Positions 2,102 to 40,757 of a stretch of 64,000 nt of DNA are shown here, one piece after another. A program made the position numbers and the translations under genes. Each line of letters starts with the position of its first letter. Positions within the stretch are counted from its first letter, which is position 1. The notes beneath the pieces are model-generated. The model did no database searches, was not told the origin of the DNA, and saw only the letters and a program-made list of their open reading frames with translations. Origin of the DNA: Fermentimonas sp. (lineage in GTDB: Bacteria; Bacteroidota; Bacteroidia; Bacteroidales; Dysgonomonadaceae); assembly GCA_028709385.1 (NCBI GenBank), contig JAQVXD010000003.1, positions 1-64,000 of the forward strand, in the 5' to 3' direction.

Positions 2102-3199
2102 TTATTTTAAACTTTCAGGGTCTACTTTCATAAATCTCAACATTCCCAGCATCCATTTTGGAAGTGGTTTTTTAGGATCACGTTTACGGAGATTGAGATA
2201 GAGGTTGAGCTTTTTCATAAGAGGTATTTTGTGTGCTTCTACCAGCTCAATGAGTGTGCCGTCGGGGTCTTCGATGTAGGCAAACTGACCTGCAGCTTCA
2301 CCCATATCAAAGGATTCTCCTTCTTTGAAATTGCGGGAACTGTCCACGGTGAAAGGGTATCCCATTTCTTCGCATTTTTTTCTTAGCGCATCTGTATTGC
2401 GTACATCAAAACATATTTGTATGAATCCGGGATCACCCCAGTAGCGACCTTCATAAATTTTTCGCTGTGTGCGGTCGAGTGGCTGCACCAGTTCAATGTA
2501 TGATTTGCCAAATAGTTCGCTAAAACTTCCCTGGCGAGGTTTGCTGTGTGACAGTATACGGCGGCGGAATTGTCCGCTACCTGATGGCAATCCTTTCAGA
2601 TCTTCAAAAGTGCCGGTTTCGTCAGCTGTTATAACATCATAACCAAGGATGTCGCGGTAAATGGGCATTGCTTTTTCGATATCGGTAACACCAATCATTG
2701 CACCTACAATACCTCCTGTTAATCGACCCTCATCTCTGTATATAGTTGTGTCATGAACAATTTGAAATATGTTCCCAAATGGGTCTTTCATGAAGAAGGT
2801 TTTGTGTCCGTCGATACTAATCTCCGGTTTGCCTAAAAGATGAACATTTGGTTTTTTGCTAAACTGCTCGTAGGTCTTTTCAACATCCCTGCTTTTGATT
2901 TTTGCGGCAAACACTCCAAGATCGCCTGCCTGTATTTCGAAATCGATGGGCTTTGGTTTTCGTTCTGAGTATTGCCATATTTCGAAACCGCCGCCGCCTT
3001 GCAGGTTGAGGGCAATTGCTGCACGTCGCTTTTGAGGTTTTCCTCCAGTGTATGGAAGCATTAGCTCGGCTACTTTGTCATCTTCAAGTATTCGGATATC
3101 CATATTGAAAACATCAATATAGTACTTCCAGGCTTTAGGAAAATTCTCTACGCCAATACCTATTTGTTGAATTCCGGATATGATATAATTCTCTTTCAT
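2102..3199 (-). CDS. Two-module VOC (glyoxalase/dioxygenase fold) protein
   Basis: 365 residues with two vicinal-oxygen-chelate modules, about residues 8-150 and 163-325, and a basic C-terminal tail. Each module has the beta-alpha-beta pattern ('IGIGVENFPKAWKYY' and 'MIGVTDIEKAMPIYRDILGY') and ends in a 'KDPFGNIFQIV' or 'EDPDGTLIELVE' strand. The two-module layout recalls 4-hydroxyphenylpyruvate dioxygenase, but the length-matched motifs of that enzyme are absent. The usual metal-ligand positions hold Q/I in place of His in the first strands, and Q in place of Glu in module 1; only the module 2 Glu remains. It may therefore not bind metal in the standard way. It is the last gene of the lipid cassette, 71 bases after the SDR gene. 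Function unknown. Confidence 0.75.
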   Translation of the reverse strand: MKENYIISGIQQIGIGVENFPKAWKYYIDVFNMDIRILEDDKVAELMLPYTGGKPQKRRAAIALNLQGGGGFEIWQYSERKPKPIDFEIQAGDLGVFAAKIKSRDVEKTYEQFSKKPNVHLLGKPEISIDGHKTFFMKDPFGNIFQIVHDTTIYRDEGRLTGGIVGAMIGVTDIEKAMPIYRDILGYDVITADETGTFEDLKGLPSGSGQFRRRILSHSKPRQGSFSELFGKSYIELVQPLDRTQRKIYEGRYWGDPGFIQICFDVRNTDALRKKCEEMGYPFTVDSSRNFKEGESFDMGEAAGQFAYIEDPDGTLIELVEAHKIPLMKKLNLYLNLRKRDPKKPLPKWMLGMLRFMKVDPESLK

Positions 3200-3270: not shown

Positions 3271-4062
3271 TTATGTTGCGCTGACCTTTCTTACAAGCCT
3301 TCTTGACAGTCCCGGCAGGAACCTTTTAATATAAACCATGATAAGCTCTTTACCGCCAACCAAAACTTCGGGTTTGCGTTTTTTTATCGCTCTTACTATT
3401 TTCTTGGCTGCTTTTTCGGCTGACATTCCGCTGTCCTGACCTTCATCCATTTTTGCATGTTTTCTGCCGTCGGCTTCAAGTGCGTTGTAGGATATATTTG
3501 TTCTGATGCGTCCGGGGCATACCATTACAACGCGAATATTATCATTAAAATACTCTGCGTGAACTGTCTCGAAGAAGCCGTAAACAGCAAATTTGGATGA
3601 TGCATAGGCTGAACGGAGCGGGAAGCCGAATTTGCCTGAGATGCTGCTGGTTACGGCAATTGTTCCTCCTCCATTTTCTATCATTGATGGCAGTAAACGC
3701 TTTGCTATCTTAACAGGAGCAAAGAAGTTAACAATCATTATTTTCTCGTCTACCTTAAAAGATGTGTCGAGAGTTTTGGAGCGCTGACTGATTCCGGCAT
3801 TCAGGAAAGCTGTATCGATTTTACCAAATGAGGCAATCGCTTTATCGGTAAGTTCATCAATGTTTTCAAGATCTGACAGGTCATATGGCAATATGACACA
3901 TTGTGCTCCCATATTGACGCATTTACACTGTACTTCCTGAAGTTTGTCAACTCTCGTTGCAGTCAGTATCAGGTTGGCCTTCTCTTTGGCAAACAGATAA
4001 GCGCAAGCTTCACCAATTCCTGACGAGGCTCCCGTTATCCATATTGTTTTATTGTTCAGCAT
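3271..4062 (-). CDS. SDR-family reductase, candidate 3-ketosphinganine/dehydrocapnine reductase
   Basis: 263 residues from the ATG at 4062; the frame also allows a TTG six codons upstream, less likely. It is a classical short-chain dehydrogenase: Rossmann loop TGASSGIG (10-17), NAG (88-90), catalytic Ser139/140, Tyr153 and Lys157 in YASSK. The C-terminus is basic and amphipathic ('FLPGLSRRLVRKV'), which could help it sit on the membrane. The gene lies 21 bases after the cysteate-synthase-like gene and in the same run as an AOS-family acyltransferase. In both sphingoid-base and capnine synthesis the ketone made by the acyltransferase is reduced by an SDR (CapC or ketosphinganine reductase), so this is the natural candidate. 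The substrate is inferred from context only. Confidence 0.82.
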   Translation of the reverse strand: MLNNKTIWITGASSGIGEACAYLFAKEKANLILTATRVDKLQEVQCKCVNMGAQCVILPYDLSDLENIDELTDKAIASFGKIDTAFLNAGISQRSKTLDTSFKVDEKIMIVNFFAPVKIAKRLLPSMIENGGGTIAVTSSISGKFGFPLRSAYASSKFAVYGFFETVHAEYFNDNIRVVMVCPGRIRTNISYNALEADGRKHAKMDEGQDSGMSAEKAAKKIVRAIKKRKPEVLVGGKELIMVYIKRFLPGLSRRLVRKVSAT

Positions 4063-4083
4063 TTTGTTAATTCTGTTCAATAA

Positions 4084-5412
4084 TCAATCCTCAAGAACTT
4101 CGTTCCAAAGTTTGATACGAAAATCATCAATGGAGTGGGGCTCACAGTCTTCTACACTATCAACACTTTTTGTTGTATAAATCATCTGCTCAAGGAAGTA
4201 GGGTGCACGGTTTGAGCCTTCGCCCAAGTTAATCAGAACCGTTTCACCATCCTTGATTTTGTTCTTCCTCAGTGCAATAAAGAATCCTGCCATACAAACT
4301 GCTGATGCGGGTCCCGGTATCACCTTTTTCTCGTATGCCATGAGTTTGCCGACAGAAAGGAGTTTGCTCTCACGCATTCTAAGAAAACTACCACCGGTTT
4401 TTTGTACCAGTTTAGCAAGTATGGGGTATGATGCCGGGTTGCCGGTTGCCAGTGTAGGTACTTCAGTCTGTGGGTTTTCAATTATGGGGTAATCATTTTC
4501 GAACCCTTCCGGGAATCCGGACTCTTCTGCCTTTTCCCAGGCTTGCACCATTGGATCGCAACCATCTGTCTGTACAAGTAGTAGACGTGGGTTTTTCAGT
4601 TCCGGGTAAATTTCCTTAATCTCACGAATACCTTTATCGATAGCTATCGGACCCGTGCCGCCGCTGATTGCCTGAATATATACATCTGGGAATTTATCCA
4701 TCTGACGGATCCATTCGAACACCATTGTCTTTTTGGCTTCAATGCGAATCGGATCGATATTGCCGGTTGACATATGTATATTGTGTATTTTAGCGTAGCC
4801 TGAAGCTAATTCCTTAGCTTTGGCATAATCACCTAATACCTTGAATACTTGTTGCCCATATGAACTAATTGTTGCTTCAGAAGCTTTTAATGTGTCTTCA
4901 GGCATGAAAACCGAGCAATTTACGTTTGCCAGGGAAAGGTATTTGGCGTATGCCGTGGCTGAATTTCCTGTAGAAGCTATACAGTACTGTTTGATACCAA
5001 TTTCGTTGAATATGCTGGCAGCCAGTGATGCGGCAATGTCTTTAAATGTTCCCGTTCCGCCGTTAAGGTCGTTGCGATAGACATGCACGTTGATATTTAG
5101 CCCGAACTTTTCCCTTGCAAAATCTTCGAGGAAGGTCCATTTCTCAACAGGTACAGCTCCTTCTTTAAGAGATATTATATGCCTCCTGCGCAAAAGCGGT
5201 AGGTAAGGGAAATAGTGCCAGAAGCTGTCCGGCTCACGTTTCATAATTCGGGGAAGCCTCTGGTACCTTCTGTTGTATGATACTTCCGAATGTTTACTGC
5301 CACACTTTGGGCATTGCTGGTTCTGATCGAACCATGTCCAGAAATTTGGTGTTATGTAACCGCATTTTGTACAAGTTAACCTGTACTTATGCTGTACTTT
5401 TACTCGCAGCAT
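4084..5412 (-). CDS. Zinc-ribbon threonine-synthase-like PLP enzyme, candidate archaeal-type cysteate synthase
   Basis: 442 residues. An N-terminal zinc ribbon (Cys14, Cys17, Cys34, Cys37) is followed by a fold-type II PLP domain: 'GGTGTFKD' with Lys124 as Schiff-base lysine, 'ASTGNSATAYAKY' for phosphate and substrate binding, 'AISGGTGPIAI', and a C-terminal 'INLGEGSNRAPYF'. Bacteroidota threonine synthase itself is normally a different, longer protein without the ribbon, so this looks like a paralogue. Archaeal cysteate synthase (O-phosphoserine plus sulfite to cysteate) belongs to this same threonine-synthase-like branch, and its homologues have been linked to capnine synthesis in Bacteroidota. 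Its place between an AOS acyltransferase (12 bases) and an SDR supports that role. Threonine synthase-like activity is the alternative. Confidence 0.75.
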   Translation of the reverse strand: MLRVKVQHKYRLTCTKCGYITPNFWTWFDQNQQCPKCGSKHSEVSYNRRYQRLPRIMKREPDSFWHYFPYLPLLRRRHIISLKEGAVPVEKWTFLEDFAREKFGLNINVHVYRNDLNGGTGTFKDIAASLAASIFNEIGIKQYCIASTGNSATAYAKYLSLANVNCSVFMPEDTLKASEATISSYGQQVFKVLGDYAKAKELASGYAKIHNIHMSTGNIDPIRIEAKKTMVFEWIRQMDKFPDVYIQAISGGTGPIAIDKGIREIKEIYPELKNPRLLLVQTDGCDPMVQAWEKAEESGFPEGFENDYPIIENPQTEVPTLATGNPASYPILAKLVQKTGGSFLRMRESKLLSVGKLMAYEKKVIPGPASAVCMAGFFIALRKNKIKDGETVLINLGEGSNRAPYFLEQMIYTTKSVDSVEDCEPHSIDDFRIKLWNEVLED

Positions 5413-5424
5413 CTCATTTAATTT

Positions 5425-6687
5425 TTACTCGATTGACATCGATTTCATTTCTTCGGATTTATATTTTCCTTCTTCGAGATTAACTTTAATAACTTTGAAG
5501 ACTTTAATAGTCTCTTCTACTTCCTTCTGCGTATGTGCAGCAGTTGGAATAAGCCTTAGCATCAGCACATCTTTAGGCACAACAGGGTATGCTACTATAG
5601 AACAGAAGATTCCATAATTCTCGCGAAGGTCAACTACCACATTTGTGCCTTCCGCTACGTTGCCTTTTACATAAACCGGTGTTACCGGAGATTCTGTGTC
5701 GCCGATATTAAATCCTTCTGCTACTAAACCATCTTGAAGCATTTTTGCAACTTTCCAGAGATTTTCTTTGTGTTCCGGTTGATTTTGAAGTATGTCAAGG
5801 CGTTTTAATGCTCCGATAACCATTGGCATGGGAAGAGATTTTGCGAATATCTGTGAACGCATATTGTATTTAAGTGAATCTATTATAGCCTTGTCTGTGG
5901 CTACGAAAGCACCTATACCTGCCATAGATTTTGCAAATGTGGAGAAATATATATCAACTTCATCCATTAGTCCAAAATGCTCACTTGTTCCGGCACCTGT
6001 TTCACCCATTGTGCCAAAACCGTGTGCATCATCTATCAAAATCCTGAAGTTGTATTTTTCTCTGAGCTTAACGATACCAGGTAAATCGCCCAATCCGCCC
6101 GACATTCCAAAAACGCCCTCTGTAACAAGCAGAATACCTCCACCTGTTTCTTCAGCTTTGCGTGTTGCAAAACCCAGCATCTTTGCGCAGCGCTCCATGT
6201 CGTTATGCGGGTAAACAAAACTCTTTCCGCCTTTTGCTTTGTGAAGGAATATACCATCCATGATGCAGGCATGTGACTCTGAGTCGTAAACAATAACGTC
6301 GTTTCTTGAAACAAGTGAGTCAAGAATTGAGACCATGCCCTGATAGCCATAATTAAGCAGATAGGCAGCTTCTTTTTTCTCGAATTTAGCAAGACGTTCC
6401 TCGAGCTCTTTGTGATATTTTGTCTGTCCTGACATCATTCTGGCGCCCATTGGATACGCCATGCCCCAGTCAGCGGCTGCTTTAGCATCTGCTTCACGTA
6501 CTTCGGGATGATTGGCAAGTCCCAGGTAGTTATTCAAACTCCAGGTTATAACCTCTTTTCCATGAAATTTCATTCTGGGGCCTATTTCACCCTCTAATTC
6601 AGGAAACATAAAATAGCCTTCTGCTTTTCTACGATACTGCTCAAGCGGTCCTTGCACGCTTTTCAGCCTGTCAAAAATATCAGTCAT
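5425..6687 (-). CDS. AOS-family acyltransferase: serine palmitoyltransferase or cysteate fatty-acyltransferase
   Basis: 420 residues, a PLP enzyme of the alpha-oxoamine synthase family, which condenses an amino acid with an acyl thioester and releases CO2. Visible: 'NNYLGLANHP' (52-61), 'SESHA' with the ring-stacking His139, 'DDAHGFGTMGETGAG' with Asp220 and His222, and 'STFAKSMAG' with Schiff-base Lys253. The family includes KBL and BioF, but neither a threonine dehydrogenase nor other biotin genes are near. Neighbouring cysteate-synthase-like and SDR genes suggest the first lipid step, either serine to 3-ketosphinganine (SPT) or cysteate to dehydrocapnine (CapB/SulA). Sequence alone does not settle which. 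An acidic and lysine-rich tail follows the conserved core. Confidence 0.88.
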   Translation of the reverse strand: MTDIFDRLKSVQGPLEQYRRKAEGYFMFPELEGEIGPRMKFHGKEVITWSLNNYLGLANHPEVREADAKAAADWGMAYPMGARMMSGQTKYHKELEERLAKFEKKEAAYLLNYGYQGMVSILDSLVSRNDVIVYDSESHACIMDGIFLHKAKGGKSFVYPHNDMERCAKMLGFATRKAEETGGGILLVTEGVFGMSGGLGDLPGIVKLREKYNFRILIDDAHGFGTMGETGAGTSEHFGLMDEVDIYFSTFAKSMAGIGAFVATDKAIIDSLKYNMRSQIFAKSLPMPMVIGALKRLDILQNQPEHKENLWKVAKMLQDGLVAEGFNIGDTESPVTPVYVKGNVAEGTNVVVDLRENYGIFCSIVAYPVVPKDVLMLRLIPTAAHTQKEVEETIKVFKVIKVNLEEGKYKSEEMKSMSIE

Positions 6688-6746: not shown

Positions 6747-6995
6747 TCACTTATCTTTTATCTCTATAAAATCGGCATCTTCAGCTTCAGTCGATTCAAA
6801 AGATTTCTTTTGATACTCGATGATACGATCCTCCTGCGTTTCAGGTTGCTTAGGCTGCTCAGGACGAGGCCTTTGTTGTCTGTAACGATTTGTTGTTGTT
6901 CCTGATCTTTTACCTCCTACTATGAAAGCTAACAAGCCTTTAAGTAACAGGTATATAAATACGAAGACTAAAAAGAATTTTATAAGAAAACCCAT
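6747..6995 (-). CDS. DUF4834 small membrane protein
   Basis: 82 residues. One N-terminal membrane helix (about residues 3-27, rich in F, V and L), then a Pro/Gln/Arg-rich linker and an acidic end ('AEDADFIEIKDK'). This matches the Bacteroidota family DUF4834, of unknown function. It lies 71 bases after pssA and 59 bases before the AOS gene, in the same direction, so it is probably part of the lipid run. Nothing in the sequence suggests an enzyme; an anchored scaffold or adaptor is possible but not shown. Confidence 0.72.
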   Translation of the reverse strand: MGFLIKFFLVFVFIYLLLKGLLAFIVGGKRSGTTTNRYRQQRPRPEQPKQPETQEDRIIEYQKKSFESTEAEDADFIEIKDK

Positions 6996-7066: not shown

Positions 7067-7780
7067 TTATTTAACGCTTGGATTAGAAATGTTTGGGGTA
7101 AATATCGATATAATTATGTATGCAGCTATTACACCGGCTATACCAGAAATGCCCCAAAATGCAACGAATATAATAAAAATAGCTGCAAGTATAAGTTGCC
7201 TTTCATTGCCTTTTAATGTTATTTTCTTGATTTTAAGAGAGAACATCGGGATTTCTGAGATCATCAGCCATGAGAACAGGAAGATCAGCATTATTGTGAG
7301 GTAGAAGATAGGTTCGTTTAGTGGAGCCAATTTATGTAAACCATAACAATAACTTATCCAGAATAGTCCGTTTGCAGGTGTAGGTAATCCAAAAAATGAT
7401 GTAGTTTGTCGTTCATCTATGTTGAATTTTGCAAGTCTGTATGCCGCAAACATAGGTATTAAAAAAGCCAGGTAAGGTGCAAAACGGCTTACTATGAGTG
7501 GCATGCCATTAAGCAAGAAATAATTATTCATCAGGATATATAATGCAGCAGAAGGAGCTACACCAAAGCTCAATACATCGGCCAGTGAGTCAAGCTCCTT
7601 ACCTAAAGGCGAGTATGCTTTAAGAAGCCGAGCTGCCATTCCATCAAAAAAATCAAACAGAGCTGCTATTGCAACCCAAATTACCACTCCTTCAAAATTG
7701 TGTTTGAAAGCCATAGTTATAGCAATACAACCTGAGAATAAGTTGAGGAGTGTTAGTATATTTGGAATGTGTTTTCTCAT
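7067..7780 (-). CDS. pssA: CDP-diacylglycerol-serine O-phosphatidyltransferase
   Basis: 237 residues, a polytopic membrane enzyme making phosphatidylserine from CDP-diacylglycerol and serine. The CDP-alcohol phosphotransferase signature DxxDGxxAR-x8-GxxxDxxxD is complete: Asp43, Asp46, Gly47, Arg51, Gly60, Asp64, Asp68. Several hydrophobic helices follow. The start is 2 bases past the psd stop (7783), so the two are translated in tandem and together give phosphatidylethanolamine. The family is the short type II enzyme found in Gram-positives and Bacteroidota rather than the PLD-like E. coli PssA. Confidence 0.93.
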   Translation of the reverse strand: MRKHIPNILTLLNLFSGCIAITMAFKHNFEGVVIWVAIAALFDFFDGMAARLLKAYSPLGKELDSLADVLSFGVAPSAALYILMNNYFLLNGMPLIVSRFAPYLAFLIPMFAAYRLAKFNIDERQTTSFFGLPTPANGLFWISYCYGLHKLAPLNEPIFYLTIMLIFLFSWLMISEIPMFSLKIKKITLKGNERQLILAAIFIIFVAFWGISGIAGVIAAYIIISIFTPNISNPSVK

Positions 7781-7782
7781 AA

Positions 7783-8451
7783 TTACTCTACTTTAGTTAA
7801 ACGGGCAAGAAATGTGACATTGGCACGAACTTCTTCTCCGATATTTACGAGTATCTCGCTGTTTAACGGAAGAAATATATCCATTCTTGATCCAAGCTTG
7901 ATAAACCCTAAAGGTGATCCTATATGTACATCTTCATTTTCTTTTACATATGTTACTATTCTGCGGGCTACTGCTCCTGCAATTTGTTTAGACAGAATTG
8001 TACCATGTTCGGGAGTTTTTATTAATATATTTGAATGCTCGTTTTCAGTACTTGATTTAGGCAGATAGGCAGCATAGAAATTACCCGAGATGTGAGAAAC
8101 ATGTGTTATTTTACCTGTTACAGGAATCCAGTTTGAATGTGCGTTGAAGAACGTCATGAAGATAGATATCTGTATTCGTTCTTCATTAAAGAAATCTTTT
8201 TCAAATACTTTTTCTATGGCTACTACCCTGCCGTCGGTGGGTGCATTGACCAAACCATGTAAGTCACCTTTATATTCACGGTTTGGTTTCTTGTAGAAGT
8301 TCATAGACAAGGCAAACAGTATAAGCGAAAGCACTAAAATAATTACCGAAAAAAGTGTATCAGGGAAAAAATAAAATGTAATAACATTTATCAGTAACAT
8401 ACTGATAAATATCCTGATAAGCGGTTTTTTACCCTCTTTGTGAATTGCCAT
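7783..8451 (-). CDS. psd: Phosphatidylserine decarboxylase, short archaeal-type
   Basis: 222 residues. Two membrane segments near the N-terminus (about 12-50) precede the decarboxylase domain. The self-cleavage site is the GS of 'KLGSRMDIFLP' (Ser188 becomes the pyruvoyl group of the small chain). 'FFNAHSNWIPVTGKI' holds the conserved His region. The length and the LGSR form of the motif fit the short, PssA-linked type rather than the E. coli LGST type. It sits between cvpA (4 bases) and pssA (2 bases), and acts directly on the PssA product at the inner membrane. Confidence 0.93.
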   Translation of the reverse strand: MAIHKEGKKPLIRIFISMLLINVITFYFFPDTLFSVIILVLSLILFALSMNFYKKPNREYKGDLHGLVNAPTDGRVVAIEKVFEKDFFNEERIQISIFMTFFNAHSNWIPVTGKITHVSHISGNFYAAYLPKSSTENEHSNILIKTPEHGTILSKQIAGAVARRIVTYVKENEDVHIGSPLGFIKLGSRMDIFLPLNSEILVNIGEEVRANVTFLARLTKVE

Positions 8452-19619: not shown

Positions 19620-22088
19620 ATGAAATACGAAATAAAACAAATAGCATCAATTATAGGCCTATCACCGAATAATCTGAATTATGCTGAAATATCCACATTG
19701 CTGACTGATAGTCGCAAGATTACAAATCCCTCAAGTACTCTCTTTTTCGCATTGGAGTCTAAAAGCAATGATGCTCATAACTACATAAGTGAGTTATACA
19801 ACTCAGGGGTACGAAATTTTGTTGTGTCTAAGCAATTCGATGAATGGAAAGATTTCAAAGATGCTAATTTTCTAAAAGTAAAAAATTGCTTGTTAGCTTT
19901 TCAAAAGCTTGCACAATATCACAGATCAAAATTTAATATTCCCGTGATAGGAATAACTGGCAGCAACGGCAAAACAGTTGTTAAAGAGTGGCTCTATCAA
20001 TTATTGGAAAAAGATTTCAATATTGTCCGCTCACCAAGAAGTTATAACTCTCAGATAGGAGTTCCGTTGTCTGTATGGCAACTTGATGAAGATACTGAAC
20101 TGGGCATATTCGAAGCCGGAATTTCCAAGCCCGACGAAATGGAATATCTTGAGCCAGTGATTAAGCCCACTATTGGAGTATTAACCAAAATAGGAGAGGC
20201 TCATCAGGAGAATTTTAGTTCACTTCAACAAAAGACTCTCGAAAAACTTGAGCTTTTCACAAATTGCGAAGTGTTTATTTATGAAAAGGATAATGAACTG
20301 GTTAATAGTTGTGTAGATCTTAAGGTTCTTTCACAGAAGACTTTTACCTGGTCCAGAAAAAACAGGGAAGCTCATCTTTTCATTTCAAATACAGAAAAAA
20401 AGGAAAACAGTACAGTTATCAGCTATACATTTATGAATTTTGATTATCGCTTTGAAATTCCTTTCATAGATGATGCTTCAATTGAGAATGCAATTAACTG
20501 CCTGGCTGTAGCGCTTTATCTGCATGTGTCACCCGATGACATATCTGACAGGATGAGTACTCTTGAGCCTGTTGCAATGCGACTTGATGTTCGCAAAGGG
20601 AAACGCGGCTCTCTGATAATAAACGATAGTTATAACTCTGATGTAAATTCAATCAAGATTGCTCTTGATTTTCAGCATCAGCGTAAAATGGACCGTAAAC
20701 TAAAGAAGACGCTCATACTTTCAGATATACTTCAGTCAGGTGTCCCGCCAAAGAGCCTATATAAAAGAGTAGCTGATATGGCAGAGCAGAGCGGAATTAA
20801 GAGAATTATTGGTATTGGCAGGGATATAACGACAAATTCAGAATTCTTTACAATGCCAGAGAAAACTTTCTTTTTAACTACTGATGATTTTCTTAAATCG
20901 AATATTCGTGAAACATTTCGTGATGAACTGATACTGCTGAAAGGTGCAAGAAAATTTAATTTCGAGAAAATCAACAATGTTTTAGAAGAGAGAAATCATG
21001 AAACTCTGCTTGAAGTGGATCTCGACGCTGTCGTACATAATTTTAATTATTACAAAACAAAACTAAAGCCTGATGTTAAGTTGATTTGTATGGTTAAGGC
21101 CAACGCGTATGGTGCGGGAGCATTAGAAATTGCCAAGACACTTCAATACCATCGATGCGATTATCTTGCGGTCGCTGTAGCGGAAGAGGCTGTTTCGCTT
21201 AGAAATGAAGGCATAACACTTCCCATAATAGTCCTCAATCCGGAAGTAAATGGTTTTGAAGAGTTGATTACAAATAATCTTGAACCTGAAATATATAATT
21301 TCCGTATTCTGGAGACTTTCATTAAAAATTCTGAGAGGAGCGGAATAACAGATTATCCTATCCACCTGAAAATTGATACTGGTATGCATCGCCTGGGTTT
21401 CCTCCCCGATCAAGTTAAAGAGCTTGCTGTGATGCTTAAAAAGCAGAAGGGACTCAGGGTCAAATCAATTTTCTCTCATCTTTCTGCAAGCGAAAGCTGG
21501 GCATTCGACGATTTTACACATCAGCAGATAAACACATTCAGAGAGGTTGCAGAAAAAATAGAGAAAGAATTAGGCTATCCGGTTTATAAACATATTCTTA
21601 ATTCTGCCGGAATAGAACGTTTTCATGAATACGAGTGGGATATGGCCCGACTGGGTATTGGACTTTACGGCGTTAGTCCAAGTGGTTTCAAAGGACTAAG
21701 GAACGTTTGCACCTTAAAAAGCACTATTTTACAAATTAAACAGGTGTCAAATAACGAAACTATAGGGTATGGAAGAAAAGAAAAACTTGATCATGATGCA
21801 CGTATTGCAACCATACGGTTTGGTTATGCTGACGGAATGGACAGACAGTTTGGAAATAGAAAAGGCAAAGTACTTATAAACGGTCAATTTGCTCCCATAG
21901 TAGGAAATGTTTGTATGGATCTTTGTATGATAGATGTTACAGATATTAAGGCTGAGGAGGGAGATATGGTTATATTGATTGGAGAAGAACTACCGGTTAC
22001 CGAATTGGCTGAATGTATAGGAACTATACCTTATGAAATTCTTACTTCTGTTTCTCCTCGGGTAAAGCGTATTTATATAAAAGAATAA
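19620..22088 (+). CDS. MurF-alanine racemase fusion
   Basis: 822 residues carrying two enzymes. Residues 1 to about 455 are UDP-MurNAc-tripeptide:D-Ala-D-Ala ligase: ATP loop 'GITGSNGKT' with Lys118, 'NSQIGVPLSVW', and 'INDSYNSD'. Residues about 460-822 are PLP-dependent alanine racemase: 'CMVKANAYGAGA' with Schiff-base Lys493, 'HLKIDTGMHRLGF', 'RFGYADGMDR', and 'GNVCMDLCMIDVT' near the end. One chain therefore makes D-Ala and adds the D-Ala-D-Ala dipeptide to the peptidoglycan precursor; Ddl is needed in between. This fusion is known in Bacteroidota and is not a frameshift artefact. Confidence 0.95.
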   Translation: MKYEIKQIASIIGLSPNNLNYAEISTLLTDSRKITNPSSTLFFALESKSNDAHNYISELYNSGVRNFVVSKQFDEWKDFKDANFLKVKNCLLAFQKLAQYHRSKFNIPVIGITGSNGKTVVKEWLYQLLEKDFNIVRSPRSYNSQIGVPLSVWQLDEDTELGIFEAGISKPDEMEYLEPVIKPTIGVLTKIGEAHQENFSSLQQKTLEKLELFTNCEVFIYEKDNELVNSCVDLKVLSQKTFTWSRKNREAHLFISNTEKKENSTVISYTFMNFDYRFEIPFIDDASIENAINCLAVALYLHVSPDDISDRMSTLEPVAMRLDVRKGKRGSLIINDSYNSDVNSIKIALDFQHQRKMDRKLKKTLILSDILQSGVPPKSLYKRVADMAEQSGIKRIIGIGRDITTNSEFFTMPEKTFFLTTDDFLKSNIRETFRDELILLKGARKFNFEKINNVLEERNHETLLEVDLDAVVHNFNYYKTKLKPDVKLICMVKANAYGAGALEIAKTLQYHRCDYLAVAVAEEAVSLRNEGITLPIIVLNPEVNGFEELITNNLEPEIYNFRILETFIKNSERSGITDYPIHLKIDTGMHRLGFLPDQVKELAVMLKKQKGLRVKSIFSHLSASESWAFDDFTHQQINTFREVAEKIEKELGYPVYKHILNSAGIERFHEYEWDMARLGIGLYGVSPSGFKGLRNVCTLKSTILQIKQVSNNETIGYGRKEKLDHDARIATIRFGYADGMDRQFGNRKGKVLINGQFAPIVGNVCMDLCMIDVTDIKAEEGDMVILIGEELPVTELAECIGTIPYEILTSVSPRVKRIYIKE

Positions 22089-38588: not shown

Positions 38589-38654
38589 ATGGAAAAATTG
38601 TTTAAGGGAATACCTTCCGCTTCAATATGTGAATCCAATTTATTTAATAAGTGA
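38589..38654 (+). CDS. Possible 21-residue leader peptide upstream of serA
   Basis: ATG at 38589 to TGA at 38652-38654 encodes 21 residues (begins MEKLFKGIPSASICES) with three Ser and one Cys. It starts close to the predicted transcription start and ends 8 bases before the serA ATG. It could be a regulatory leader linking serine supply to serA translation, but it may be chance. Confidence 0.3.
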   Translation: MEKLFKGIPSASICESNLFNK

Positions 38655-38662
38655 TACAAAAT

Positions 38663-39589
38663 ATGAAAGTACTTTTGGCAACAAGTAAACCTTTTGCTTT
38701 GCAGGCAGTGCAGGGGATACAGAATGTAATTGAAACTGCCGGACTTAAATTCGAAAAACTAGAAAACTATACTGATAAATCGCAACTACTTGATGCCGTT
38801 AGAGATGTTAATGCTTTAATAGTCAGAAGTGATGATGTCGATGGAGAGATTATGGATGCTGCCCCGCAGCTTAAGCTTATTATCAGGGCAGGTGCAGGTT
38901 ATGATAATGTTGATCTGGAGGCTGCTACAAGTCGCAACATCTGTGTGATGAATACTCCCGGGCAGAATGCTAATGCTGTTGCAGAACTGGTATTTGGTAT
39001 GATGATTTTCATGCAGCGTAACCAGTTTAACGGGACTGTAGGAAGAGAGCTGATAAACAGACGACTCGGACTTTATGCTTTTGGTAATGTAGCAAAAAAG
39101 GTTGCGCGTATTGCCCGCGGTTTTAATATGGCGGTTTATGCTTATTCTCCTACCTTAACTCACGATGATCTCAGGAAAGAGGGTGAGTATGGGGTAATTA
39201 CTGCATACAGCAACAGAGAGCTGTTTGAAAGCAGTGATATAGTATCTCTTCACATGCCCTTACTGGAAGATACTAAAAATTGTGTTGACTATAACCTCTT
39301 GGCTTATATGCCTAAAGATGGATTATTAATTAATACTGCCCGTAAGGAGCTTATTGTTGAAGATGATTTGATTAGAATCATGGAGGAACGCACTGAATTC
39401 CAGTATGTGACAGATATCAAACCGGATAAGCACGAAGTCTTCCTTGAAAAATTTCCAACACGCTATTTCTCCACTCCTAAGAAATCGGGAGCGCAAACCA
39501 GGGAGGCTAACCGAAATGCCGGTATTGCAGCTGCTCACCAAACGGTGATGTTTTTTAAAAACGGTGATGATCGTTATAGGGTTAATTAA
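38663..39589 (+). CDS. serA: D-3-phosphoglycerate dehydrogenase, short type
   Basis: 308 residues from ATG 38663; a GTG at 38651 is a less likely start. D-2-hydroxyacid dehydrogenase fold without the ACT domain: 'IIRAGAGYDNVDLEAAT', 'NAVAELVFGMMIFMQRN', 'LINTARKELIVEDDL' (catalytic Arg), and 'KKSGAQTREANRNAGIA'. The NAD loop is 'YAFGNVAKKVA', so two of the usual three Gly of GxGxxG are Ala, an oddity to check. Lies upstream of serC, making the first two steps of serine synthesis. Confidence 0.88.
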   Translation: MKVLLATSKPFALQAVQGIQNVIETAGLKFEKLENYTDKSQLLDAVRDVNALIVRSDDVDGEIMDAAPQLKLIIRAGAGYDNVDLEAATSRNICVMNTPGQNANAVAELVFGMMIFMQRNQFNGTVGRELINRRLGLYAFGNVAKKVARIARGFNMAVYAYSPTLTHDDLRKEGEYGVITAYSNRELFESSDIVSLHMPLLEDTKNCVDYNLLAYMPKDGLLINTARKELIVEDDLIRIMEERTEFQYVTDIKPDKHEVFLEKFPTRYFSTPKKSGAQTREANRNAGIAAAHQTVMFFKNGDDRYRVN

Positions 39590-39677: not shown

Positions 39678-40757
39678 ATGGAAAAGTACAATTTTAATGC
39701 CGGACCTTGTGTGCTTCCCAGACCGGCAGTTGAGTCGGCTATTGAAGCAATCCGCAATTTTGACAACACGGGAATAGGTATTCTTGAGATTTCTCATCGT
39801 ACACCGGGTTGGGAACGAATCATGAAAGAGACAGCCGATTTGTGGAAGGAACTTCTTAATATTCCAGATAACTATCATGTTCTTTTTCTTGGTGGTGGTG
39901 CCAGCACACAGTTTTTTGATGTACCTGCAAACCTGTTGAAAAGTAAGGCTGCTTACCTCGAAACAGGCTCATGGGCAAAAAAAGCTATTAAAGAGGCTAA
40001 GTTTTACGGAGATGTTGAAATTGTTGCTTCATCTTCTGATAAAAATTTCTCATATATACCTAAGGGTTTCACTGTCCCTACTGATGTTGATTATTTCCAT
40101 ATAACAACCAATAATACCATTTACGGAACGGAGATACATGAAGATATTGACAGTCCGGTTACATTGGTTGCCGATATGTCATCTGACATAATGAGCCGCC
40201 CTGTTGATGTTTCAAAATACGGTATCATTTATGGAGGCGCACAGAAGAATGTCGGTCCTGCGGGAGTAGCTTTCGTTATTGTACGCGAAGATATACTCGG
40301 TAAAACAGGCCGTCCCATTCAAACGATGGTTGATTACCGCACTCATATCAGTGATTCGGAGAAAAACCGTTCAATGTTTAATACACCTCCCGTATTCTCT
40401 ATTTTCGTGATGCACGAAACCCTAAAATGGCTTAAAGAGCAGGGTGGGGTGGAAGCAATCTATAAGCTGAATAAGGAGAAGGCAGGCATGCTTTATGACG
40501 AGATCGACAGGAACAAGCTATTCGTTGGAACAGCTGCAAAAGAGGACCGCTCAATTATGAATGTATGCTTCGTGATGAATGAAGAATATAAAGACAAAGA
40601 GGCTGAATTCCTTAAATTTGCAACCGAGAGAGGTATGGTTGGAATTAAAGGTCACCGTTCTGTTGGCGGTTTCCGTGCATCAATTTACAACGCATGTCCA
40701 AAAGAAGCAGTTGAAGCACTCATTAAATGTATGCAGGATTTTGAAAAGCAGTTTTGA
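39678..40757 (+). CDS. serC: Phosphoserine aminotransferase
   Basis: 359 residues. '[10 protein letters not shown]' opening, '[12 protein letters not shown]' substrate region, '[11 protein letters not shown]', '[14 protein letters not shown]', and Schiff-base Lys190 in '[11 protein letters not shown]'. Converts phosphohydroxypyruvate and glutamate to phosphoserine. Follows serA by 88 bases. Phosphoserine is also the substrate a cysteate synthase would use (inference). Confidence 0.96.

Follow-up and report, generated by a model that had tools for sequence, protein, structure and literature searches.

A candidate third lineage of cysteate synthase in a predicted sulfonolipid gene cluster of Fermentimonas and other Bacteroidales

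A Predicted Sulfonolipid Cluster

Positions 1 to 64,000 of contig JAQVXD010000003.1 (the window, 64,000 nucleotides), from the Fermentimonas sp. assembly GCA_028709385.1 (Bacteroidales; Dysgonomonadaceae), contain a minus-strand gene cluster that probably directs the synthesis of sulfonolipids, in which a pyridoxal phosphate (PLP)-dependent enzyme would represent a third lineage of cysteate synthase, feeding an acyltransferase of the CapB/SulA type and then a short-chain dehydrogenase/reductase (SDR). The cysteate synthases described so far are CapA, the cystathionine-beta-synthase-like (CBS-like) enzyme of Capnocytophaga, and a homolog of archaeal cysteate synthase carried by Alistipes and Odoribacter (both according to excerpts of PMC10191378). 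The PLP enzyme and its relatives, referred to here as the window type, are a distinct family that is covered by neither class. On balance, we also lean toward a wider reading, namely that an as yet unnamed third lineage replaces CapA and CapA2 in Bacteroidales, that in several families it comes with its own sulfite generator (capB-cysH-PLP gene or cysH-cysD-cysN-transporter-cysQ-PLP gene) in a direct line from sulfate to sulfonolipid, and that a two-domain protein of the vicinal oxygen chelate (VOC) superfamily is a further member of the pathway. The pathway itself is already known; what appears to be new, judged by the matches listed in full-text literature searches, is the lineage of the enzyme and its clustering with cysH.

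The cluster consists of the following genes, in order of transcription:

5425-6687, minus strand: capB/sulA, probable cysteate fatty acyltransferase (3-ketocapnine synthase), 420 aa, alpha-oxoamine-synthase-like (PDB matches, failed serine palmitoyltransferase model, Lys283)
4084-5412, minus strand: window-type PLP enzyme, candidate cysteate synthase (third lineage), 442 aa (PALP fold, own clade, context)
3271-4080, minus strand: SDR, candidate 3-ketocapnine (dehydrocapnine) reductase with a CapC-like role, 269 aa (adh_short, PRK06181, position)
2102-3199, minus strand: two-domain VOC (glyoxalase-superfamily) protein, co-conserved (PF00903 in two stretches)

The first three are tandem open reading frames (ORFs) that were confirmed at 5425-6687 (Pfam family Aminotran_1_2), 4084-5412 (PALP) and 3271-4080 (adh_short), and the three-gene operon at 3271-6687 of a preliminary description thus stands, while the conserved unit is one gene longer, as it includes the VOC gene. 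The intergenic gaps measure 12 bp between capB and the PLP gene, 3 bp between the PLP gene and the SDR gene, and 71 bp between the SDR and VOC genes. In the proposed pathway, the PLP enzyme would convert O-phosphoserine to an aminoacrylate on PLP-Lys124, add sulfite and release L-cysteate, CapB would form 3-ketocapnine from cysteate and a long-chain acyl thioester, and the SDR would convert this to capnine, yielding sulfonolipids of the capnine/sulfobacin kind, with the VOC protein as a participant in the same pathway. In related families, where the cluster around the PLP gene includes predicted genes for adenosine phosphosulfate/phosphoadenosine phosphosulfate (APS/PAPS) reductase and for ATP sulfurylase, in some cases along with capB, sulfite would be made at its site of use. 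What the data show is a CapB-type acyltransferase, a distinct PLP family, its linkage to capB and, in relatives, to genes for sulfite production, and its mutual exclusion with the archaeal type in one sample; that the enzyme makes cysteate, that the SDR acts as the reductase, that the VOC protein takes part and that the cells contain sulfonolipids we infer.

Sulfonolipids, which are sulfur-containing relatives of the sphingolipids, have been tied to gliding, to rosette induction in choanoflagellates and to inflammation (excerpts of PMC11211663 and PMC3463246), and genome surveys for their producers rely on queries of the CapA or CFAT type (PMC11211663, section 8). If our reading is true, probes of the CapA or archaeal type would miss probable producers, namely the 47 of 209 CapB genomes in our sample of the order that carry the window type without an archaeal-type enzyme, the capB-cysH clusters would point to the origin of the sulfite in the lineages that have them, and the VOC gene would be a testable missing step. 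Among the literature matches listed by a full-text search, no paper on a third PLP family or on capB-cysH clusters was found. For the capnine-rich Labilibaculum euxinus, the protein given as CapA is a match of 32% identity (Table 2 of PMC12927429, seen as an excerpt), which is below the 40% identity between the CysK of our host, which passes the CysK model, and a CapA-type protein, hence the true cysteate synthase of L. euxinus may be of another type.

The Acyltransferase Is of the CapB/SulA Type

The protein encoded at 5425-6687 matches two PDB entries over nearly its full length, namely 7u7h (E 2.4e-170), which we take to be the structure of A. finegoldii SulA, and 28eh, titled 'Cysteate-C-fatty acyltransferase' (3.7e-164), whereas the match to the serine palmitoyltransferase (SPT) structure 3a2b is far weaker (1.8e-74) and the SPT model NF047600 is failed (309 bits, cut-off 640). 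Lys281 has been proposed as a marker that separates sulfonolipid from sphingolipid enzymes, SPT having an alanine at this position (excerpts of PMC9304779). When the 20-residue tag is subtracted, the PLP lysine and the marker lysine of 7u7h become residues 251 and 281, matching the numbering in those excerpts, and Lys283 of the window protein aligns with residue 281. The marker lysine is present in 205/205 CapB rows (142 distinct; rows are sequences nearer to the window CapB than to the other queries), and all of them also agree at the positions checked for His, PLP-Lys and Arg. The host has a separate SPT (L009; 665 bits, cut-off 640), in which the marker position is alanine. By the failed model, the E-values and the diagnostic lysine, an SPT identity is ruled out for 5425-6687, and homology together with this lysine strongly supports a CapB/SulA-type enzyme, in agreement with the capnine-type alpha-oxoamine synthase of the preliminary description. 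Sequence comparison with CapB/SulA revealed no feature that sets the window protein apart.

The PLP Enzyme Belongs to Neither Described Class

The preliminary description assigned the PLP enzyme to an archaeal-type route. This label was dropped, because the enzyme scores 109.2 bits on the archaeal-type cysteate synthase (CapA2) model TIGR03844, the cut-off of which is 324.9, and lies in a clade of its own outside that class. Three further window-type proteins fail likewise (113-133 bits), while the order's full-length TIGR03844 members reach about 440-510 bits. What remains of the original proposal is a capnine gene set that includes a probable cysteate synthase distinct from the threonine synthase (ThrC) of the cell. 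Both ThrC models are failed as well (PRK08197, 155 bits, cut-off 303; TIGR00260, 94 bits, cut-off 167), and the CapA model NF053679 is absent from the 16 NCBIfam matches of the enzyme at E<=0.001. The PDB entry 9k3c carries the title 'CapA2 from Alistipes finegoldii', and with the report of archaeal homologs in Alistipes and Odoribacter (PMC10191378, excerpts as above) the group around it is taken as the archaeal-type class. The identity of the window enzyme is 23% to an archaeal-type member of the order (L189) and 21% to 9k3c by fold alignment.

The AlphaFold2 model of the enzyme has a mean predicted local distance difference test (pLDDT) score of 92.4. The PLP lysine K124, an S-x-G-N loop and R223 are kept, and an N-terminal Cys4 ribbon (C14, C17, C34, C37) shows no variation across a 41-row alignment and is 95-100% conserved across the 65 window-type rows of the tree set. 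With CapA2, the window type shares the PALP fold, probably the reaction, seven family-specific residues, perhaps a sister relationship and, as described below, a complementary occurrence; it differs in failing the model, in keeping the Cys4 ribbon and in its gene linkage. CapA would have the same role in the pathway, and it sits on another branch of the PALP fold. A CapA-like gene lies beside capB in L103 and L105 (551 and 547 bits, just below the cut-off of 600). In the host genome (128 contigs, 88% complete), no CapA was found among the seven PALP proteins, of which three resemble CysK and reach 254, 192 and 172 bits on NF053679 (cut-off 600), and a CapA elsewhere in the host was therefore dropped as the source of cysteate. 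Among named records, the closest PLP genes are from a Bacteroidales metagenome-assembled genome (MAG; 94%), a Fermentimonas MAG (97%, partial) and Proteiniphilum (about 80-84%), and Petrimonas sp. IBARAKI has a 72% match.

Linkage to capB, Sulfate Reduction Genes and the VOC Gene

PLP-gene loci were taken from genome contigs (the best 80 of 99 confirmed, some cut by contig ends). On the strand of the PLP gene, capB lies within 300 bp in 57/80 loci and within 2 kb in 58/80, an SDR gene lies within 1 kb in 49/80 and a VOC gene within 3.5 kb in 44/80, and all three accompany the PLP gene in 44/80. The SDR at 3271-4080 passes PRK06181 (224.5 bits, cut-off 215); its 269 residues are counted from a TTG, and an in-frame ATG six codons downstream looks the likelier start. 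From its position and family, it is likely a 3-ketocapnine reductase. It shares family and operon position with the CapC/KCR 3-ketocapnine reductases (excerpts of PMC11211663). The VOC gene also adjoins capB in other families (L285:11635-12687 and L298:12196-13314), and its linkage suggests that the protein acts in the same pathway. Residues Q12, E73, E236, Q261 and E318 are invariant in 28 rows of VOC proteins, and the AlphaFold2 model (pLDDT 85.7) has glyoxalase-family proteins as its nearest folds, in a search that resolves the superfamily only.

In a sample of the order, 54 window-type loci were inspected on the same strand within 8 kb, many of them on short contigs, and capB was found in 14, cysH in 12, cysD in 7, cysN in 7, cysQ in 10 and a transporter of the CitMHS/DASS type in 7. 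CysH makes sulfite, and a PLP enzyme beside both CysH and CapB is in the context expected of a cysteate synthase. At least one of cysH, cysD and cysN lies within this distance of the PLP gene in 14/54 loci, and 13 of these 14 genomes have CapB somewhere, while capB and cysH occur together in 6/54 loci (L268, L270, L285, L298, L299, L311). The gene orders include capB-cysH-PLP gene (L270, L285, L311), capB-cysH-transporter-PLP gene (L298, L299) and VOC-cysH-cysD-cysN-transporter-cysQ-PLP gene (L264, L293). Scans of three CysH proteins and of a single CysD, CysN and CysQ each gave scores that pass curated models, and the other Cys proteins were named by similarity to these. The L264 transporter was also scanned, and its sole NCBIfam match is below cut-off. 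Taken together, capB or any of cysH/D/N/Q accompanies the PLP gene in 28/54 loci, in contrast to none of the 20 CapA2 loci. As controls, flanks of 6-7 kb contained no cysH/D/N/Q in these 20 archaeal-type loci (of 79 genomes), nor in 20 CapB loci from genomes with neither type (of 85).

Two further observations concern these neighborhoods. In L268, a 491-aa PF03601 membrane protein (L268:5376-6848) is encoded between cysH and the PLP gene, a family that presumably comprises putative sulfate exporters. A separate context without sulfur genes, in which the PLP gene is accompanied by those of a tetratricopeptide repeat (TPR) protein, a membrane protein of PF04018 and a protein resembling shikimate dehydrogenase (a single example of each scanned), is seen in L258, L259, L272, L165, L170 and others, with Salinivirgaceae among the named ones.

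Distribution Across Genomes

Calls were made at E<=1e-20 for the PLP enzyme (genus), E<=1e-90 for CapB and E<=1e-25 for TIGR03844 (order). In the host genus, the PLP enzyme and CapB are both present in 32 of 37 genomes and both absent from five (four of them 59-87% complete, G652 99%), and no genome is discordant. Among 295 genomes of the order, an archaeal-type cysteate synthase exceeds the cut-off in 79, with fragments in 2 more, and a weaker full or partial TIGR03844 match, assigned to the window type, is found in 55; the proteins of the 54 such genomes besides the host are all nearest to the window protein among the queries. The two types occur together in 0/295 genomes, where 15.1 are expected (Fisher 4e-9, counting genomes and not independent events, as relatedness is ignored). 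CapB is present in 209/295, of which 77 have the archaeal type, 47 the window type and 85 neither, and among these 209 the two types are again never found together (17.3 expected).

A three-way rule, by which each CapB genome would hold exactly one of CapA, CapA2 and the window type, is broken by the 85/209 genomes that have neither of the latter two. When a CapA-type protein was used at E<=1e-60 to search 79 of these 85 (leaving out the six of lowest completeness), only G741 (45%) exceeded 41% identity. Cysteate in such genomes, 20 of which are represented by L312-L331, may perhaps come from a further enzyme. A further set, made up of 46 window-type genomes that have CapB, 8 that lack it and 26 archaeal-type genomes, was searched in the same way and includes matches of 47% in G944 and 45% in G871, both of them window-type genomes and each match with an in-frame stop, and of 43% in G727. 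In a class sample (395 genomes, E<=1e-45) and a phylum sample (296 genomes, E<=1e-30), both with few genomes of the host's order, the window-type family was found in the host alone. At E<=1e-30, the phylum sample gave 11 further matches, which have 29-33% identity and belong to the PRK08197 ThrC group; CapB is present in 108/296 genomes of the phylum sample.

Contrary Evidence and Rival Explanations

Several results weigh against a cysteate synthase of a third lineage. The 85 CapB genomes that hold neither threonine-synthase-fold type leave part of the order's cysteate supply unaccounted for. Conversely, 8/55 window-type genomes lack CapB at E<=1e-90; several are incomplete, G695 is 99% complete, and it carries the PLP gene inside a cysH-cysD-cysN cluster. 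Among the 54 loci of the order sample, 14 lie in the TPR/PF04018/shikimate-dehydrogenase-like context, which has no obvious link to sulfur (11 of these 14 genomes hold CapB), and 12 show none of the families sought. The best NCBIfam score of the PLP enzyme is on the ThrC model PRK08197, and its nearest solved structures by both sequence and fold are threonine synthases, with 2zsj first and 9k3c 17th by fold. The same direction is taken by 12 alignment positions that are common to the window type and ThrC and never seen in archaeal-type cysteate synthases, and by trees in which the window type is forced together with ThrC, which stand under the approximately unbiased (AU) test (p-AU 0.26 for both ThrC groups, 0.19 for the PRK08197 type alone). 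Finally, no PF01507 match of CysH/CysD strength was found in 37/37 genomes of the host genus, five of which have weaker matches of 44-97 bits.

With this last result, a CysDH of the host's own was dropped as its source of sulfite; host sulfite would come from elsewhere (uptake, thiosulfate or sulfonates), or the enzyme uses another substrate. Matches of CysH/CysD strength are present in 12/15 archaeal-type genomes and 14/15 CapB genomes with neither type, all of these 12 and 14 having two or more PF01507 matches with frame lengths fitting CysD and CysH, and in 5/13 CapB-negative genomes outside the genus; the gap of the host genus is thus shared by 3/15 sampled archaeal-type genomes. The presumed substrate of the PLP enzyme, O-phosphoserine, is presumably supplied by a tandem in the window of SerC (39678-40757, passing both its models) and a SerA-like dehydrogenase (38651-39589; 168 bits, PGDH cut-off 454).

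It is conceivable that the PLP enzyme makes an analog of cysteate for CapB, such as homocysteate from phosphohomoserine and sulfite, which would lead to an unusual sulfonolipid. That it has diverged deeply from CapA2 and is built on a scaffold resembling ThrC would fit this, the CysH linkage points to sulfite and not to a particular amino acid, and in the host genus, with no CysH/CysD found, even the nucleophile might be a different one. However, the CapB next to it is ordinary, with the diagnostic lysine and the checked His, PLP-Lys and Arg conserved throughout, and the PLP enzyme shares residues with the archaeal-type cysteate synthases, so that we consider an analog unlikely. The shared residues are D195, Y196, G217, Y245, Q247, A248 and N395, which are common to at least 90% of both window-type and archaeal-type rows and occur in 0/14 ThrC rows; 3 positions are common to the archaeal type and ThrC and never found in the window type.

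A second threonine synthase, or a different paralog that uses phosphohomoserine, merely residing in a lipid operon, is in our view quite an unlikely identity for the PLP enzyme. The fold, the PLP lysine and the Cys4 ribbon, the latter common to ThrC of the PRK08197 type, are shared with threonine synthases, and the ThrC-directed score, structures, positions and forced trees given above all speak for it. On the other hand, the score of 155 bits is far below the cut-off of 303. The host has its own ThrC elsewhere (297 bits on TIGR00260, cut-off 167), which removes an adverse outcome named in the preliminary description, a genome without another ThrC. The ThrC residues N154 and S155, presumably with roles in the active site, N154 of T. 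thermophilus ThrC as a substrate ligand, are replaced by G and N in the window type (the N154 counterpart is G217), so that positions of the phosphate site are altered. Linkage to capB and cysH/D/N and the mutual exclusion with archaeal-type cysteate synthases have no ready explanation with a threonine synthase.

The trees bear on the same question. A 110-row tree comprised 65 window-type rows, 31 archaeal-type rows including 9k3c, 11 ThrC rows of the PRK08197 type (three were scanned, and all pass the model) and 3 PDB fragments of class-I ThrC. Rooted at the midpoint, it places each group on one side of a branch, with support of 91 for the window type and 99-100 for the others. An independent origin from ThrC was initially read off this rooting and was given up, since a 48-row subset tree with an outgroup points to sisterhood of the window type with the archaeal type (support 99/94). 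This outgroup consists of CysK, a CapA-type protein and two PALP proteins (TrpB by eye), all long-branched, and on the cysteate synthase side the trees contain Bacteroidales sequences and 9k3c, with TIGR03844 and 9k3c standing in for the archaeal enzymes. The grouping with true threonine synthases that the preliminary description had named as the adverse outcome is therefore absent from the best trees, which keep the window type outside both ThrC clades, but it is not rejected by the AU tests. As these tests decide nothing, neither sisterhood nor an independent origin from ThrC is firmly claimed; sisterhood with the archaeal type is favored by the rooted tree and not proven.

That the PLP enzyme is only a diverged member of the published archaeal-type class of gut Bacteroidota appears very improbable, since in spite of the common clade, the seven shared residues and the homologs known from Alistipes and Odoribacter (excerpts of PMC10191378), it falls far short of TIGR03844, is only 23% identical to L189, forms a separate long-stemmed clade from that of the archaeal type, keeps a Cys4 ribbon that is mostly absent there and lies in other gene neighborhoods.

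Neighboring Genes

With the upstream genes included, the order of transcription on the minus strand is psd, pssA, an 82-aa ORF, capB, PLP gene, SDR and VOC, with the following features:

7783-8451, minus strand: phosphatidylserine decarboxylase, psd (PRK05305.1-2, 232.5 bits, cut-off 225)
7067-7780, minus strand: pssA-like CDP-alcohol phosphatidyltransferase (TIGR00473, 114.9 bits, cut-off 107)
6747-6995, minus strand: 82-aa ORF, kept upstream of capB in close relatives

The 82-aa ORF matches no NCBIfam or Pfam family at E<=0.001. A scan for promoters and terminators gave counts near chance (31 vs. 28.6 and 9 vs. 7.3) and carries no information on the ends of the operon. Elsewhere in the window, an 822-aa ORF at 19620-22088 encodes a MurF-Alr fusion, with a Mur-ligase middle domain and the N- and C-terminal domains of alanine racemase.

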